This document shows positions 24,240 to 29,235 of a stretch of DNA of 42,824 nt, in pieces (position 1 is the stretch's first letter; each line of letters begins with the position of its first letter). Made by a program: the position numbers and the translations under genes. The DNA is from an uncultured Oscillospiraceae bacterium (GTDB lineage: Bacteria; Bacillota; Clostridia; Oscillospirales; Oscillospiraceae), in assembly GCA_947627735.1 (NCBI GenBank), contig CANQXG010000019.1, forward strand, positions 1 to 42,824. Direction: 5' to 3'. A model generated the notes under the pieces. It searched no databases and was not told where the DNA came from. It saw only the letters and a program-made list of their open reading frames with translations.

Positions 24240-24267
24240 ATTATACTACGTCCGCCGCAAAATGCAA
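24240..24267 (-). promoter_or_regulatory. Promoter of the MMPL operon
   Basis: On the minus strand TTGCAT (24262-24267) and TATAAT (24240-24245) are 16 bases apart, about 35 bases before the MMPL start. Confidence 0.7.
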
Positions 24268-24298: not shown

Positions 24299-24321
24299 GC
24301 CCCCGCCGGTGAGGCGGGGGC
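24299..24321 (-). terminator. Terminator after the downstream recombinase homologue
   Basis: Perfect 9-bp arms, GCCCCCGCC (24299-24307) and GGCGGGGGC (24313-24321), lie 15 bases after the stop, followed on the minus strand by CTTTCCTTTG. Confidence 0.75.
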
Positions 24322-24336: not shown

Positions 24337-25176
24337 TCAGTTTTCCCAGCCCACGGTGAGCTGTTCTTCGTCCAGCTGGCGCTCCAGGGCCTGCTCCACC
24401 AGCAGGGCGATGTTGTCCTCGATGGCTTTGCGCCCGGCAAGATACAGCCGCCGCAGGCAGCGGGGATTGCCCTTCTCCACGGGAACCTTCGCCACCATGC
24501 ACAGGCTGCGGATGGCGGTGGTCACGTACGTCCGGCTCATGGGCGTGCCGTCCTTGGTCAGGAACACCGGCCCGCGGTATATGCCCTGGCGCTCGGCGAA
24601 GGCGAGAATTTCCTTCCGCACGCAGCCGGGGAGGCGGATGTTGCGCCTCGAATTGCCCTCGCCCACGGTCACCTGCCCGGCGGATACCGCCTCCACGGTG
24701 ACCTTATCCAGCTCCTGCACCGGCATGTCCGCGCTGGCGAACAGCTTCACCAGCAGATACACCTTCTCCCGCCCCAGCAGCTTCGCCACTTGGAGCAGGT
24801 GCCGATACTCGCTGCGGCTCAGCTCCGGATGGAGCTTTTCCTCGGTCTCCAGGCTGTCGCCCAGCTGATACTCCCGGTGGCCCATGTAGGCCACATAGGT
24901 GTTCGCCACGGACAGGATCAGGTTCACCGTCCGCTTGGCGTAACCCGCCTGCAGCAGGGCCTCCCGGCACTGTTCCAGGGTCCCCCGGCGGATGCGCCGG
25001 TCCTCGGGCAACACCTCGGCCAGGTGTTCCAGGCTCCGCCGGTACCGCTCCACGGTTTCGGGCGCCCGGCCCTTGGCGGCCAGGTCGGCGAGGAACCGCT
25101 CGCCGTCGGCCTCGGTCATGGGCACGCCCGCGTCCCGCCCGCGCCGCGCGGCTGGCCGCAGTTCAAGCATATCCAT
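24337..25176 (-). CDS. Tyrosine recombinase homologue lacking the usual catalytic residues
   Basis: This is a 279-residue protein. Residues 20-100 form a SAM-like core-binding domain (RAPETVERYRRSLEHL, TVNLILSVANTYVAYMG). Residues 115-250 follow the integrase fold. Family-defining residues are missing. The first Arg (TGxR) is replaced by ASADMPVQEL (about 149-156). The HxLRH box is PRCLRRLY (238-245), with both His as Arg and only one Arg kept. No LGH motif and no C-terminal nucleophilic Tyr are visible; the tail ends EEQLTVGWEN. It may be an accessory DNA-binding or directionality factor, or a decaying recombinase. GGGGGATGA precedes the ATG. It lies downstream of the surface-protein gene. 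Confidence 0.75.
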   Translation of the reverse strand: MDMLELRPAARRGRDAGVPMTEADGERFLADLAAKGRAPETVERYRRSLEHLAEVLPEDRRIRRGTLEQCREALLQAGYAKRTVNLILSVANTYVAYMGHREYQLGDSLETEEKLHPELSRSEYRHLLQVAKLLGREKVYLLVKLFASADMPVQELDKVTVEAVSAGQVTVGEGNSRRNIRLPGCVRKEILAFAERQGIYRGPVFLTKDGTPMSRTYVTTAIRSLCMVAKVPVEKGNPRCLRRLYLAGRKAIEDNIALLVEQALERQLDEEQLTVGWEN

Positions 25177-25198: not shown

Positions 25199-25225
25199 GG
25201 GAGCAGGGCCAGAGACCCTGCTCCC
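25199..25225 (-). terminator. Terminator of the surface-protein gene
   Basis: Perfect 10-bp arms, GGGAGCAGGG (25199-25208) and CCCTGCTCCC (25216-25225), lie between the surface-protein stop and the recombinase homologue. The T run is interrupted (TTTCC), so some read-through is possible. Confidence 0.7.
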
Positions 25226-25259: not shown

Positions 25260-28010
25260 TTACAGGTCGGTGTAGTTCACGGCCTTGCCGTTCAGGCTGA
25301 CGCAGGCGCCATAGTGACCGTTGTGCTTGGTCTCGAACACGCCCGTGCCCTTCGCGGCGACACCGTCCACAGCGCTGGCCTCGATGGCGACCGTGCCATG
25401 ACGGGCCTGGCCGATGCAGCCGTTGTAGTTGTTGTGCCGCAGGTAGAAGTAACCAGCAGCGAAGGTACCGGCGTCCTTGCCTTCCTTATTGATGCCGCGG
25501 CAGGCGGGGACGTAGGTGAAGCCGCCGTGAGCCAGGGTGCCGTCCGGGTTCATGTAGTACCACAGAGCGCGGCCGGACTCGACCCACTGGTTCTTGACCA
25601 TCTCGCCCTTGTTGAAGTAATACCACTCGCCGCTGGCGGTCTCGACCCAGCCGGTGCCGGAGGCGGGGGCGGTGGGAACGTCTTCCTCTTCCTCATAGCC
25701 CACCAGAGCGGCCTTCAGGTCGTCGATGGACTTCTGGATGCCGGTGGCATTCTTCTGCGGAGCAATAGCCTGCTGATAGGCGTCCATCAGCTTCTGCAGA
25801 GCCTCGTCGCTGAGCTGGCCGCTGAGCTGCGCCCGCAGGGCACGGTTGATCTCGGTGTTCAGCTCGGTGATCTTCTCGCCGGTCACGTCGGTGGCCGCAG
25901 CGTCCTTGCCGCCCACGGTGACCTTGTCCATCTTCACGGAGGCGTCGCCCTGGGTGCTAACAGAGATCTTGTCGCCGATGGAGCTGAGGGTCAGAGTGCC
26001 GTTGGTGACAGTCAGGTCGCCCTTGGTGATCTGGCTCAGAGCCGCGGTGATGTCGCTGCCGACGAAGTAGTAGCCGTCGGTCTCACCCAGCGGGGACTGA
26101 TAAGTAGTAGGCTCAGTCTGGGTGTCCTCGACGCTGGCGACCACAGAACCCTCGGCAACATACGCCGCCTCGGTGAGATTGCTGGCGTTGTCAGGATTGA
26201 AAGCGCCGCCGGTGATCACGTTCTTCACTTCGCTGATGGTAACAGTGCCGGCAAAGGTGCCGCCGCTGATGGCCACGTCGGAGTGGTGCTCGGTACTGAT
26301 GGTGACGTCTTCATACTCGCCGCCGGAGATGGTCAGATCGATCTCGTCAGCGATAGTATTGCCGATCTTGGTAGTGCCGCCGACGGTGGCGTTCAGGGTG
26401 ACCTTGCCGTTGCCGGTGATGGTCAGATCGCTGCCCACCTCGCCGGTGACGCTGGCGGTCTTGCCAAGGGTGATGGTCACGCTCCCAGCGACCTCGCCGC
26501 TGATGTCGGCGTCGCCGGTCACGGTGACGTCACCGGTGACCACGCCGGCCATAGTGACGGAACCGGCGAAGCTGTCGATCACAGAAACGATGGAGTCGGC
26601 GTCCACAGAGGCGGAAACCGTGCCAGTGCCGGAGGCAGAGCCGGTCAGAGCCAGCTGGCTATAGGTGTTCACCAGGGAAACGCTGGCATTCTTGCCCGTG
26701 GCAGCCGTAACGTTGATTTTGCCGCTGCCACTGCCGATGATGTTGCCGTTATTGGTGAAGGAGACCTTCGCGTCGGTGACGGTGATGCTGTTGGCCCCCA
26801 TGTCAAGGATGTGGCCGGCCATGTCGATGGTCAGATTCTTGCCGATATTAACAGGCTCACCCGGTTTGACATCGGACAGCAGGACGATGGTGTCGCCCGC
26901 CTTGGCTTCCTTGATAGCATCGGCGAGGGTCTCATACTCCTTGTCGCCGATCTTCGCCTCGGCGCCGGTGCCCTCAGCGCTCTCGGTGACTTCCTTACCG
27001 TCCACGGTGACCGTGCCGGCTGTCGTAGCCTTGCTGACCGTCACGCCGGGATTCAGCTTGCCGAACGCGGCGTCGCCCTGCAGGACATTGGCGCTGTCGC
27101 CGGAGGTCAGCTCGTCGACCGCGCTCTCCACAGCGGCCTTGCCCACCAGGAAGTAGGGGCTACCATCTTCGGTGATCTTCGCGACGGTGGCGCCCTTCGC
27201 GGTGTCCTGGATATTAAAGCCAGCATCATCGGTAATGAACTTGCCGCCGCTGATGAAGCCGGGGACGCTGCCGCCGGCGATCTTGCCGTCGAAGGTGCCG
27301 CCGGTGACGGAGATGGTGTTGTCACGTTTGCCCTGGCCAACAGTCAGAGCGGTGTCATTGCCGGCGATATAGCCGTTGCTGATCGCGATGGTGCCGGAGC
27401 CAGCGACATTAACGCCGGTGCCCACAGCCGTGCCGGGCTTGCCTTCGGTCGTAAGCTCGCAGCCGATGTAGCCGCCGCTGACGGTCAGGCTCGCGGTGCC
27501 GCTGATCGCCACGGCATCGCCGGCGACCTCATAGACGACGTTGCCGCCGCTGATGGTCACGGAACCCTTGTTGGCGGTGATAGAGCCGGTGGTACCGCTG
27601 GCGACGGCCACCGTGCCGGTGCTGGTGATGTCGCCGTGAACAGTGCCGTTGACGGTCAGGGAGCCGCCGTCGGCGACCGTGATGTCGCCGGCCAGCACGC
27701 CCTCGCCGTTGATGGTCAGGCTGCCGCCCTTGGCGACCGTGATGCTGCCGGTCAGGGCCTTATCCTTGGCGATGGTGAGGGTCAGCGTCCAGTCCACGTC
27801 CTTGGCGGGCCAATCCAGGTCCGCGCCCACGGAAATTGCGGCGTTCTTTGCGTTCACCGCGTCATTCAGGGCCGTCTGGTTGGTATCCTGAATGTCCGCG
27901 ACAGGAGCAGGCTCATCAGCACTAACAGGCTCGTCAGCCGCGAAGGCCGGGACGCACAGAGACAGAGCCATGATCAGCGCCAAGAGCATGCTGAGTACAC
28001 GTTTTGTCAT
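25260..28010 (-). CDS. Secreted surface protein with beta-helix-like repeats and a C-terminal cell-wall-binding repeat
   Basis: This 916-residue protein has a clear signal peptide (MTKRVLSMLLALIMALSLCV, cut after AFA). Residues of about 60-650 are rich in short Gly/Thr/Ser/Val repeats of the type GGSLTVNGTVHGDIT and ISGGTFAGTVTIS, suggesting a stacked beta-solenoid as in adhesins. A charged helical region follows (about 690-760, LSDEALQKLMDAYQQAI). A choline-binding-type repeat follows (GTGWVETASGEWYYFNKGEM, then WYYMNPDGT). The end is a Cys-containing domain, HNNYNGCIGQARHG...HYGACVSL. GGAGG is nine bases from the chosen ATG; the open frame extends upstream only through the switch region. 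An adhesin or colonisation role is inference. Confidence 0.85.
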   Translation of the reverse strand: MTKRVLSMLLALIMALSLCVPAFAADEPVSADEPAPVADIQDTNQTALNDAVNAKNAAISVGADLDWPAKDVDWTLTLTIAKDKALTGSITVAKGGSLTINGEGVLAGDITVADGGSLTVNGTVHGDITSTGTVAVASGTTGSITANKGSVTISGGNVVYEVAGDAVAISGTASLTVSGGYIGCELTTEGKPGTAVGTGVNVAGSGTIAISNGYIAGNDTALTVGQGKRDNTISVTGGTFDGKIAGGSVPGFISGGKFITDDAGFNIQDTAKGATVAKITEDGSPYFLVGKAAVESAVDELTSGDSANVLQGDAAFGKLNPGVTVSKATTAGTVTVDGKEVTESAEGTGAEAKIGDKEYETLADAIKEAKAGDTIVLLSDVKPGEPVNIGKNLTIDMAGHILDMGANSITVTDAKVSFTNNGNIIGSGSGKINVTAATGKNASVSLVNTYSQLALTGSASGTGTVSASVDADSIVSVIDSFAGSVTMAGVVTGDVTVTGDADISGEVAGSVTITLGKTASVTGEVGSDLTITGNGKVTLNATVGGTTKIGNTIADEIDLTISGGEYEDVTISTEHHSDVAISGGTFAGTVTISEVKNVITGGAFNPDNASNLTEAAYVAEGSVVASVEDTQTEPTTYQSPLGETDGYYFVGSDITAALSQITKGDLTVTNGTLTLSSIGDKISVSTQGDASVKMDKVTVGGKDAAATDVTGEKITELNTEINRALRAQLSGQLSDEALQKLMDAYQQAIAPQKNATGIQKSIDDLKAALVGYEEEEDVPTAPASGTGWVETASGEWYYFNKGEMVKNQWVESGRALWYYMNPDGTLAHGGFTYVPACRGINKEGKDAGTFAAGYFYLRHNNYNGCIGQARHGTVAIEASAVDGVAAKGTGVFETKHNGHYGACVSLNGKAVNYTDL

Positions 28011-28052: not shown

Positions 28053-28081
28053 CACCATAGAATTCACATTCTGTGGTATGT
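28053..28081. repeat. Inner inverted repeat of the promoter switch (IRL)
   Basis: This is a 29-base repeat matching the reverse complement of 28303-28331 at 27 of 29 positions. It is itself a dyad: arms ACCATAGA and TCTGTGGT around the 8-base centre ATTCACAT, with an asymmetric ATGT tail on the inner side. Two 8-base arms around an 8-base crossover region is the expected form of a tyrosine recombinase site. Confidence 0.88.
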
Positions 28082-28302
28082 ACACGGAATTTACTTCCTC
28101 CGAGCCCAGCTTTACGAGGATGATTATAGCCCGCTTCCCTAAAAAAAGCAAGGGGAAATTCAAAAAAAGTTTAATTTTTTACATACCAAAGGCGCTTGAG
28201 GCCCTGTCGCGCGGCCCCAAGCGGACTTGTTGTGCGCTTTTCACAGCTTTTCGGCCCGATTTTCTCCCACGCGGGAGAAAACTTGTGCCGCGCCGCGAAC
28301 GC
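28082..28302. promoter_or_regulatory. Predicted invertible promoter segment controlling the surface protein
   Basis: This 221-bp non-coding segment lies between 29-bp inverted repeats, and an intact tyrosine recombinase gene ends just outside it. It contains one strong promoter, directed at the surface-protein gene (28123-28151), and a 9-bp hairpin TTTTCTCCC / GGGAGAAAA (28260-28281) near the far end. That hairpin could block transcripts coming from the recombinase gene. In the other orientation the promoter would point into the 3' end of the recombinase gene, giving antisense RNA and leaving the surface protein silent. The assembled orientation is ON. Confidence 0.85.
28123..28151 (-). promoter_or_regulatory. 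Switch promoter, facing the surface-protein gene
   Basis: On the minus strand TTGCTT (28146-28151) and TATAAT (28123-28128) are 17 bases apart. Transcription should start near 28116 and cross the inner inverted repeat, giving a leader of about 105 bases to the ATG at 28010. Confidence 0.85.
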
Positions 28303-28331
28303 ACATACCACAGATTGTGAATTCTGTGGTG
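28303..28331. repeat. Outer inverted repeat of the promoter switch (IRR)
   Basis: Inverted copy of 28053-28081. On the minus strand its arms ACCACAGA and TCTGTGGT are a perfect 8-base inverted pair around ATTCACAA. The two sites share the central ATTCACA and differ at one arm base and the last centre base. It lies 4 bases from the recombinase stop codon (28336-28338). Confidence 0.88.
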
Positions 28332-28335
28332 TTTT

Positions 28336-29175
28336 TTATGTCAGAAAGGCCAGCTGATCCATCTGCCGGCGCTGCTCCCCCGGCGTCCGGGCGGTGTAGA
28401 TGCGCGTCGTCTCCACGCTGGAATGGCCCAGGATGTCCGCCAGGCGCACGATGTCCCGGAACTTGCTGTAATAGGTCCGGGCGAAGAGGTGGCGCAGGTT
28501 GTGGGGGAACACTTTATTTAATAGTACCCCCGCCCGGGCCGCTAAGCGCTTCATGCTCTTCCAGAGGTTGCTCCGGTCCAGGGGCTTTCCGCTGGCGGTG
28601 ATAAAGATTTGACCGCTGGTTATCCCCCTGTTACGGCAATAGGAGATAAGGAGTTTGCACAGCTTCTTCGGCAGCAGCAGCATCCGTATCTTCCCCTTGG
28701 ACCTGATCTCCACTTTTCCCGCCCTCGCGGCCTCCAATGTGATGAAATTCAGCTCGCTGACCCGGGCGCCGGTGGCCCCCAGTGTCTGCAGCGCCAGGGC
28801 CAGGCGGGCGTCGCCGGTGCGCTTCGCCGTATGCACCAGCTTTTCATACTCGGCGCGGGTCATCTCCCGCTCCGGGGCCATGAAAACTCTGCGCTGGACC
28901 TTCATCAGGCGAAGCCGCCATTCACGGTATCCGCTCATATCCAGCAGCTTATTCACCGCCGTGAGCACCCCGTTCACCGTGGCCGGGGCCATGCCCGAGG
29001 CGGCCAGGTCCTGTTTGAAGGCCACCAGCGCCGCCTTGCCGGGCACCTGGCCGCCGCAGTAGGCCGCCAGCCGCCGCGCCGCCGTCATATACTTCACCAC
29101 CGTCGCCGCCGCGCACTCGTCCTCCACGAGCCTCCGGCGGAAATTCTCCAGGGTCTGTTCGTTCAGCACCAACAT
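28336..29175 (-). CDS. Tyrosine recombinase, predicted invertase of the adjacent promoter switch
   Basis: This 279-residue protein carries a full catalytic set: Arg138 (ATGARVSEL), Lys at about 160-162 (RSKGK), His225 and Arg228 (HNLRHLF), His251 (LGHSS) and nucleophile Tyr260 (TTRIYT). The N-terminal SAM-like domain covers about 8-85. It resembles XerC/D-type site-specific recombinases. Its stop codon is 4 bases from the 29-bp inverted repeat. That placement, and the pair of dyad sites around a promoter, indicate that it flips the segment. The ATG at 29175 has GGAGG eight bases upstream; an ATG five codons earlier overlaps that site. No phage or element genes lie nearby. Confidence 0.9.
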   Translation of the reverse strand: MLVLNEQTLENFRRRLVEDECAAATVVKYMTAARRLAAYCGGQVPGKAALVAFKQDLAASGMAPATVNGVLTAVNKLLDMSGYREWRLRLMKVQRRVFMAPEREMTRAEYEKLVHTAKRTGDARLALALQTLGATGARVSELNFITLEAARAGKVEIRSKGKIRMLLLPKKLCKLLISYCRNRGITSGQIFITASGKPLDRSNLWKSMKRLAARAGVLLNKVFPHNLRHLFARTYYSKFRDIVRLADILGHSSVETTRIYTARTPGEQRRQMDQLAFLT

Positions 29176-29192
29176 CGTCCGTACCTCCATAA

Positions 29193-29235
29193 AAAATCAA
29201 TGTGCCGGTCCTATTGTTCCCGACACATTGATTTT
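29193..29235 (-). terminator. Hairpin in the leader of the recombinase gene (terminator or attenuator)
   Basis: Arms AAAATCAATGTGCCGG (29193-29208) and CCGACACATTGATTTT (29220-29235) match at 15 of 16 positions. On the minus strand the hairpin ends in six T, immediately followed by the recombinase ribosome binding site ATGGAGG. It comes after a separate strong pyk terminator, so it may control recombinase expression rather than end pyk. Confidence 0.65.

Follow-up and report, generated by a model that had tools for sequence, protein, structure and literature searches.

The window is a stretch of 42,824 nucleotides from an uncultured Oscillospiraceae bacterium (contig CANQXG010000019.1). It contains a unit on the minus strand in which an active-type tyrosine recombinase gene (int1) is followed, in reading order, by 4 bases, a 29-bp repeat, a 221-bp promoter segment and a second repeat. 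On the same strand then come the gene of a 916-residue surface protein, a hairpin, a second recombinase-like gene (int2) and a terminator-like hairpin. The features are the following:

29193–29235, minus strand: long dyad just upstream of int1, a possible operator or RNA control element (folding z −5.9)
28336–29190, minus strand: int1, a tyrosine recombinase (Xer-like) of the active type (Phage_integrase, 4.7e-24), with the catalytic set R, K, H, R, H, Y kept
28303–28331, plus strand: recombinase-side recombination site, a dyad followed by TTTTTT on the plus strand, terminator-like
28082–28302, no strand assigned: invertible segment with promoter, the homologous segment being present in both orientations
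28123–28151, minus strand: promoter TTGCTT–17 bases–TATAAT in the ON orientation, directed at the surface gene (consensus score 9 of 12)
28086–28098, minus strand: leader dyad GGAAGTAAATTCC, with similar dyads seen by eye in sister loci
28053–28081, plus strand: gene-side recombination site, an inverted repeat with a dyad around ATTCACA, matching the other arm at 27 of 29 positions
25260–28010, minus strand: gene of a 916-aa protein, putatively secreted, surface-located and phase-variable, with an N-terminus that by eye resembles a signal peptide
25199–25225, minus strand: conserved hairpin GGGAGCAGGG..CCCTGCTCCC followed by TTT, between the surface gene and int2
24337–25176, minus strand: int2, a catalytically dead tyrosine-recombinase homologue of 279 aa, the last gene of the switched operon
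24299–24321, minus strand: terminator-like hairpin after int2, the likely operon end

A pair of repeats matching at 27 or more of 29 positions within 600 bp occurs once in the window and in none of 30 Markov-resampled windows. A looser criterion of 22 of 29 gives many overlapping matches (37 in the window, against 0–6 in ten resampled windows), and therefore the strict match alone was used. The promoter between the repeats is absent from a stricter consensus scan, because TTGCTT matches at 3 of 6 positions and the scan requires 4. It is nevertheless credible, since the best promoters of 30 of the 31 measured spacers, that of the window included, score 9–12, the remaining one (L124) scoring 8. 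These parts agree with a preliminary description of the locus, which had reported the repeats with the 221 nucleotides between them, the promoter aimed at the surface gene, and the intact tyrosine recombinase gene 4 bases outside; the account had overlooked the recombinase-like gene int2. The dyad and T-run of the recombinase-side arm could stop an OFF-state transcript ahead of the recombinase gene. A run of at least five A between the recombinase stop codon and the arm is present in 18 of 31 loci, and such a terminator role is therefore not universal. Across the int1 loci, the arms mostly read ACCACAKAAT, a short centre and then the complement.

The true start of int1 is probably the ATG near 29175, which is preceded by GGAGG, and int1 homologues are mostly near 279 aa long. 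A search with int1 gave matches in all 35 same-genus genomes, many of them merely distant Xer-type relatives, and 54 stretches were fetched from these matches together with six from the window's own genome. The resulting set of 46 int1 homologues, all above 200 bits, includes several near-copies (for example L088/L089/L091, L095/L096 and L101/L107). Each position of the R, K, H, R, H/W, Y set is kept in 45 or 46 of these; a single row, most likely that of L093, a locus on a contig that breaks off within the gene, is gapped at the last two positions. Against the models for tyrosine-type DNA invertases, int1 scores 23.3 and 19.4 bits, below the cut-offs of 221 and 222.

The preliminary description had made its reading depend in part on conservation of the repeats beside homologous recombinases, and an inverted repeat pair starting a few bases past the recombinase stop was indeed found automatically at 33 of the 46 int1 homologues. 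Among the 13 loci missed by this search, L097, L100, L106 and L016 were read by eye, and the contigs of L090 and L093 end ahead of the switch. L099, L112, L114, L121, L123 and L018 have a forward promoter and no local repeat pair was found there, nor was one found after int1 in L125. In L123 (G026:C2) and L114 (G020:C3), a related recombinase and an adjoining promoter accompany two convergent surface genes enclosed by inverted repeats of 266 and 332 bp, which carry the same 23-bp dyad at each end; inversion would swap the expressed gene. A contig of the window's own genome (C13, L018) has the same beginning and ends at the start codon.

The long dyad upstream of int1 is near-identical in the four examined G026 copies and was not seen ahead of several other int1 homologues. 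Many switches that lack int2 have instead, as read by eye, a dyad able to base-pair with the ribosome site (CTCCTTTCG..CGAAAGGAG). The presence of dyads upstream of the recombinase suggests that the recombinase is itself controlled. At one locus (L136, G032:C23), an ON switch adjoins an int1 gene that is split and bears an internal stop codon, and this switch may be locked ON.

The cassette of tyrosine recombinase, switch and surface gene recurs in the genus, and the spacers of related loci align in either the same or the inverted sense. In the 31 measured spacers, 27 of them distinct, the best promoter is directed at the gene in 8 cases and at the recombinase in the other 23; the promoter directions of L124 are tied on score, and this locus was called ON by the homology of its spacer to that of the window. 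Seven more loci were read by eye, three as ON (L100, L128, L136) and four as OFF (L097, L106, L129, L137). In genome G025, the spacers of L087 (OFF) and L128 (ON) are identical at 229 of 229 positions once one is inverted. The two are paralogous cassettes (int2 dS 0.29), so that the inversion separates two cassettes and does not represent alternative states of a single locus. Closely similar spacers in opposite orientation were also seen by eye in two species (L130, G022:C5, and L150, G012:C43), the former with an additional direct repeat copy inside the switch.

The mismatches between the two repeats reveal where the exchange takes place. The outer mismatch, a C in the recombinase-side arm and a T in the gene-side arm, stays with the flank, whereas the inner one (A or T) moves with the spacer. 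In all seven loci of the clade to which the window belongs, the half-site letters agree with the orientation; these are the window and L128 (ON) and L087, L088, L089, L091 and L129 (OFF), the four G026 loci being near-copies. The script used for this comparison had the outer letters preset in its pattern, and the raw sequences display those letters. The same exchange, with other letters, distinguishes L100 (ON) from L106 (OFF) in G011, and in a third clade it separates L127 (ON) from L126 (OFF), which belong to two species; L092 has no ON partner for such a comparison. As the outer letters are fixed and the inner ones travel with the spacer, the crossover lies between the markers, over the shared centre. 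In addition, contig G026:C23 (L090) breaks off at precisely the position from which the ON and OFF forms diverge, a hint that both forms were among its reads.

At the level of sequence, the comparison of loci shows the segment 28082–28302 to be one that is inverted by site-specific exchange inside the flanking dyads. The invertible promoter beside a recombinase that the preliminary description had proposed is supported by the orientation differences, the exact inversion between paralogues in G025 and the half-site exchange; its assignment of the assembled orientation as ON is likewise borne out, the promoter being directed at the surface gene. From its adjacency, its co-occurrence with the switch and its intact active site, we infer that int1 is the enzyme that inverts the segment.

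The surface protein has at its C-terminus a weak match of the choline-binding type (Choline_bind_1, 5.5e-5), with two other such models below the cut-off, and its fold is predicted with a pLDDT of only 38. Among its relatives, the N-terminus is conserved and the body is variable. Between the surface gene and int2, all 25 loci examined have a GC-rich hairpin with a short T-run, recognised by its pattern in 22 of them and by eye in L092, L113 and L124. Its stem varies by paired changes, GGGAGC/GCTCCC in some loci and GGGGGC/GCCCCC in others; the folding z of the window hairpin with its flanks is only −1.9. In another family, a hairpin of other sequence was seen by eye at the same place. The gene after int2 encodes an MMPL-type transporter. 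Because this gene has its own promoter-like sequence (24240–24267) and a terminator-like hairpin follows int2, the switched unit most likely consists of the surface gene plus int2.

In all 29 int2-type sequences, the first R of the catalytic set is replaced (by P in 26), the K is absent (G in 25, a gap in 4), the first H is replaced (by R in 26) and the His...Tyr segment has been lost, while the second R is kept in 26. Both the common fold and sequence homology tie int2 to the tyrosine recombinases. The protein matches the NCBIfam XerA-type model at 7.6e-13, under the curated cut-off. Its AlphaFold model, built from an alignment of ten sequences (pLDDT 80, pTM 0.55), retrieves XerA and XerD structures with Foldseek at E-values of 7.7e-8 (5hxy) and 2.2e-5, with TM-scores of only about 0.4–0.5. 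Between the window and L087, the int2 copies are 91% identical and the int1 copies 76%. The dN/dS ratios are 0.09–0.19 for int2 as compared to 0.21–0.34 for int1, with int2 lower in 6 of 6 shared pairs, all drawn from the window, L087, L088 and L092. Purifying selection thus acts more strongly on int2 than on the active enzyme.

The 42 dead recombinases among the 97 sequences of a tree all fall on one side of a single branch with a support of 100/100; the tree is midpoint-rooted, drew a long-branch warning and was built from data that include the missing segment by which the dead type is defined. Identical rows were omitted, as were int2-like frames outside 240–340 aa, except for two pieces of a frame of 733 aa. 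A mobile-element origin of int2 was considered and set aside: one scan of viral contigs confirmed no relative, and the matches in phages (2 records, 27–29%) and plasmids (6 records, 24–31%) were only weak.

Strong int2 genes (at least 329 bits) number 26 and are found in 12 of the 35 same-genus genomes. A switch is visible at 20 of these genes (7 ON, 13 OFF), and four lie on contigs that do not reach the switch. In L131 and L132, int2 is accompanied by a forward promoter; repeats are not visible there, and the stretches did not reveal an int1 gene. In genome G016, int2 lies downstream of a forward promoter where repeats are not visible, which argues against a role of int2 solely in inversion. 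The best int1 match of this genome, which is 75% complete, is int2 itself, and neither of the two listed out of its three matches is int1-like.

We also considered a mutual exclusion of ON copies within a genome, which the orientation counts do not support. In six genomes with 18 int2-bearing loci, 5 are ON (1 of 4 in G011, 1 of 3 in G024, 1 of 2 in G025, 0 of 4 in G026, 1 of 2 in G027 and 1 of 3 in G032), and at most one ON copy per genome arises by chance with a probability of 0.15.

Dead recombinases also stand in a different kind of operon. The order of recombinase, switch and at least one dead-recombinase frame is found in clusters C5 and C1 of the window's own genome (L016, L017), in L141–L144 and in L146. 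Nine downstream proteins of L016, L017, L143, L144 and L146 were assigned by Pfam, and all nine belong to polysaccharide- or sugar-type families or are an ABC-2 membrane protein; the same holds for 10 of 10 proteins of L175 and L176, from other members of the family. Judged by eye, the promoter faces the operon in L017, L144, L146 and L155 and points away in L016 and L141–L143. Most of the polysaccharide-type operons that begin with a dead gene after an active recombinase have a visible promoter switch, none being clear in L176. Some of the dead frames consist of two to three tandem units, such as the 733-aa frame of L016.

Of 250 genomes of the family, 71 have a match to int2 at 1e-3, many of these matches being active enzymes. 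Outside the genus, 12 stretches from ten genomes were chosen among 13 dead-like matches above 170 bits (G064 was omitted). A dead-type homologue is present in all 12 and an active recombinase lies nearby in 10. In six of these ten (L175, L177, L178, L179, L182 and L186), a clear repeat pair follows the recombinase, the dead gene of L186 lying 2 kb further away; a clear pair after the recombinase was not found in L176, L180, L183 and L184. At the level of the order, 6 of 345 genomes, the window's own included, reach 1e-40 with int2, and two of them belong to another family. One of these, G532, has the layout twice: an active recombinase, repeats matching at 24 of 25 and 20 of 20 positions, a surface protein with S-layer homology, a hairpin and a dead recombinase, the last three lying on one strand.

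At yet other switches, int2 was not found adjacent, and the targets differ. Behind the switches of L095 and L117 (G032) lie genes of DEAD-type helicases with helicase-associated domains, and a DNA- or RNA-acting enzyme may be phase-variable there too. Behind the int2-less switch of L111 lies a protein of more than 2100 aa with repeated DUF7601/DUF5979 domains.

Taken together, these observations make it very likely, in our judgement, that the locus is a self-contained phase-variation cassette, in which the promoter segment inverts, int1 acts as the enzyme and int2 as a feedback regulator of the ON state. In the ON orientation, the surface gene and int2 behind it have a promoter facing them, and in the OFF orientation they have none. 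The surface gene would then be silent in the OFF state. The layout suggests that the promoter would in that state be aimed at the antisense strand of int1, with the transcript ending at the recombinase-side dyad and its T-run. int2 would be made mainly in the ON state, at a lower level owing to the preceding hairpin. The least certain step is the last one, in which int2 may bind DNA without cutting it and feed back on the inversion or on the promoter. The survival of int2 in L131 and L132 tends to favour an additional role at the promoter. A wider proposal is a tentative one, for which we put the chances slightly below even: dead tyrosine recombinases, having separated once from the active enzymes and stayed under strong selection, would be state-dependent regulators which are encoded in the switched operon, are made only in the ON state and act on their own switch or on sister switches for surface proteins and capsules.

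Among the alternatives, int2 could regulate the transcription of the surface or polysaccharide operon, as an activator, a repressor or an antiterminator at the hairpin, leaving the inversion untouched. This role would fit the retention of int2 in L131 and L132, where a promoter faces the gene and repeats are not seen, as well as the dead homologues at the head of several polysaccharide operons and the hairpin between the surface gene and int2. However, the position of these genes beside recombination switches suggests a link to the switches, and a binding site for int2 would be hypothetical; we regard this role as possible but on the unlikely side. Somewhat less probable still is that int2 associates with int1 as a structural partner, the two forming a mixed active/dead tetramer that sets the direction of inversion. 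Its relation to Xer enzymes in sequence and fold and its usual linkage to an active recombinase would agree with such a partnership. Nevertheless, related recombinases stand at switches without an adjacent int2 (L094, L095, L096, L098, L109 and L111), and the enzyme family therefore does not need int2; moreover, the incomplete genome G016 has int2 and no int1-like match among those listed.

That the switch inverts and int2 is merely a leftover or hitch-hiking recombinase without a function would be in line with its lost catalytic residues and the many recombinase genes in these genomes. This is very improbable in view of the low dN/dS over all six pairs, the single dead clade, and the retention of int2 with its hairpin behind the surface gene in every locus examined and in another family. 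Finally, although the plus strand of the recombinase-side arm has the look of a terminator and several contigs end in or near these loci, it is hardly conceivable that the repeats are a terminator pair around a static spacer, with the differences among loci arising from gene conversion or assembly choice. In three separate clades the half-site letters change places together with the spacer, as expected for strand exchange, and homologous spacers are inverted across species.

The cassette unites in one repeated unit an enzyme, its site and its target with a conserved relative of the enzyme that would not cut DNA, and members of the same dead clade stand first in several polysaccharide operons with a promoter switch. 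If the wider proposal is true, these proteins would form a class of phase-variation regulators that is new, with members in two or more families of a single bacterial order. The cassette bears on the question of how the surface is coordinated in cells with many flipping promoters. Two short genes and a 279-bp reporter allow a direct test of feedback on DNA inversion, and the half-site letters provide a simple readout of orientation from assemblies.

Flipping promoters are well known, the best-known cases being those of Bacteroides. The promoter flipping described here is a known kind of system, and the novelty lies in the conserved dead recombinase that the switched operon contains. In the phase-variable polysaccharide operons of Bacteroides, the first genes are those of the regulators UpxY and UpxZ. 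Several phase-variable polysaccharide operons likewise coexist here, but the first gene is a dead recombinase and the switches have their own tyrosine recombinase. In the part of the literature drawn on here, one serine recombinase, Mpi, serves many sites of the Bacteroides capsule switches (PMC5903667).

The preliminary description had likened the locus to cwpV of C. difficile, and this parallel is a poor one. As far as the source used for it goes, the cwpV promoter lies outside the inverted segment, the switch is based on a terminator and recV is not adjacent (PMC2784873), whereas the promoter here lies inside the segment and the locus is not a switch of the cwpV type. The same source, within the portion used, reports that fimE transcripts depend on the phase of their switch (PMC2784873). 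A further counterpart by description is the clostridial inverton group 139, which in the part of the report considered is associated with tyrosine recombinase group 35; both there and here, a clostridial inverton has a tyrosine recombinase nearby, and that part of the description does not mention a dead recombinase (PMC11892184). Group 139 may include switches of the present kind. The report also describes, in the same part, an Intestinimonas inverton near a tyrosine recombinase whose orientation shifted in culture, and states that a recombinase gene close to an inverton is as a rule not driven by the inverted promoter, group 145 being a possible exception (PMC11892184). Among the titles and abstract openings covered, with preprints and most subscription journals outside their scope, we found no catalytically inactive tyrosine recombinase in a phase-variable operon.

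With the fim switch of E. coli and with invertons, the locus shares a promoter in a short segment, inverted repeats, an adjacent tyrosine recombinase and a surface target. In contrast to fim, the recombinase here is Xer-like, with 23 bits against a DNA invertase cut-off of 221, many paralogous cassettes occur in several genomes, each with its own enzyme, and a dead recombinase lies inside the controlled operon. FimB and FimE, like int1 and int2, are two related recombinase proteins at one switch; both of them are catalytically active recombinases, whereas int2 is without the catalytic set.
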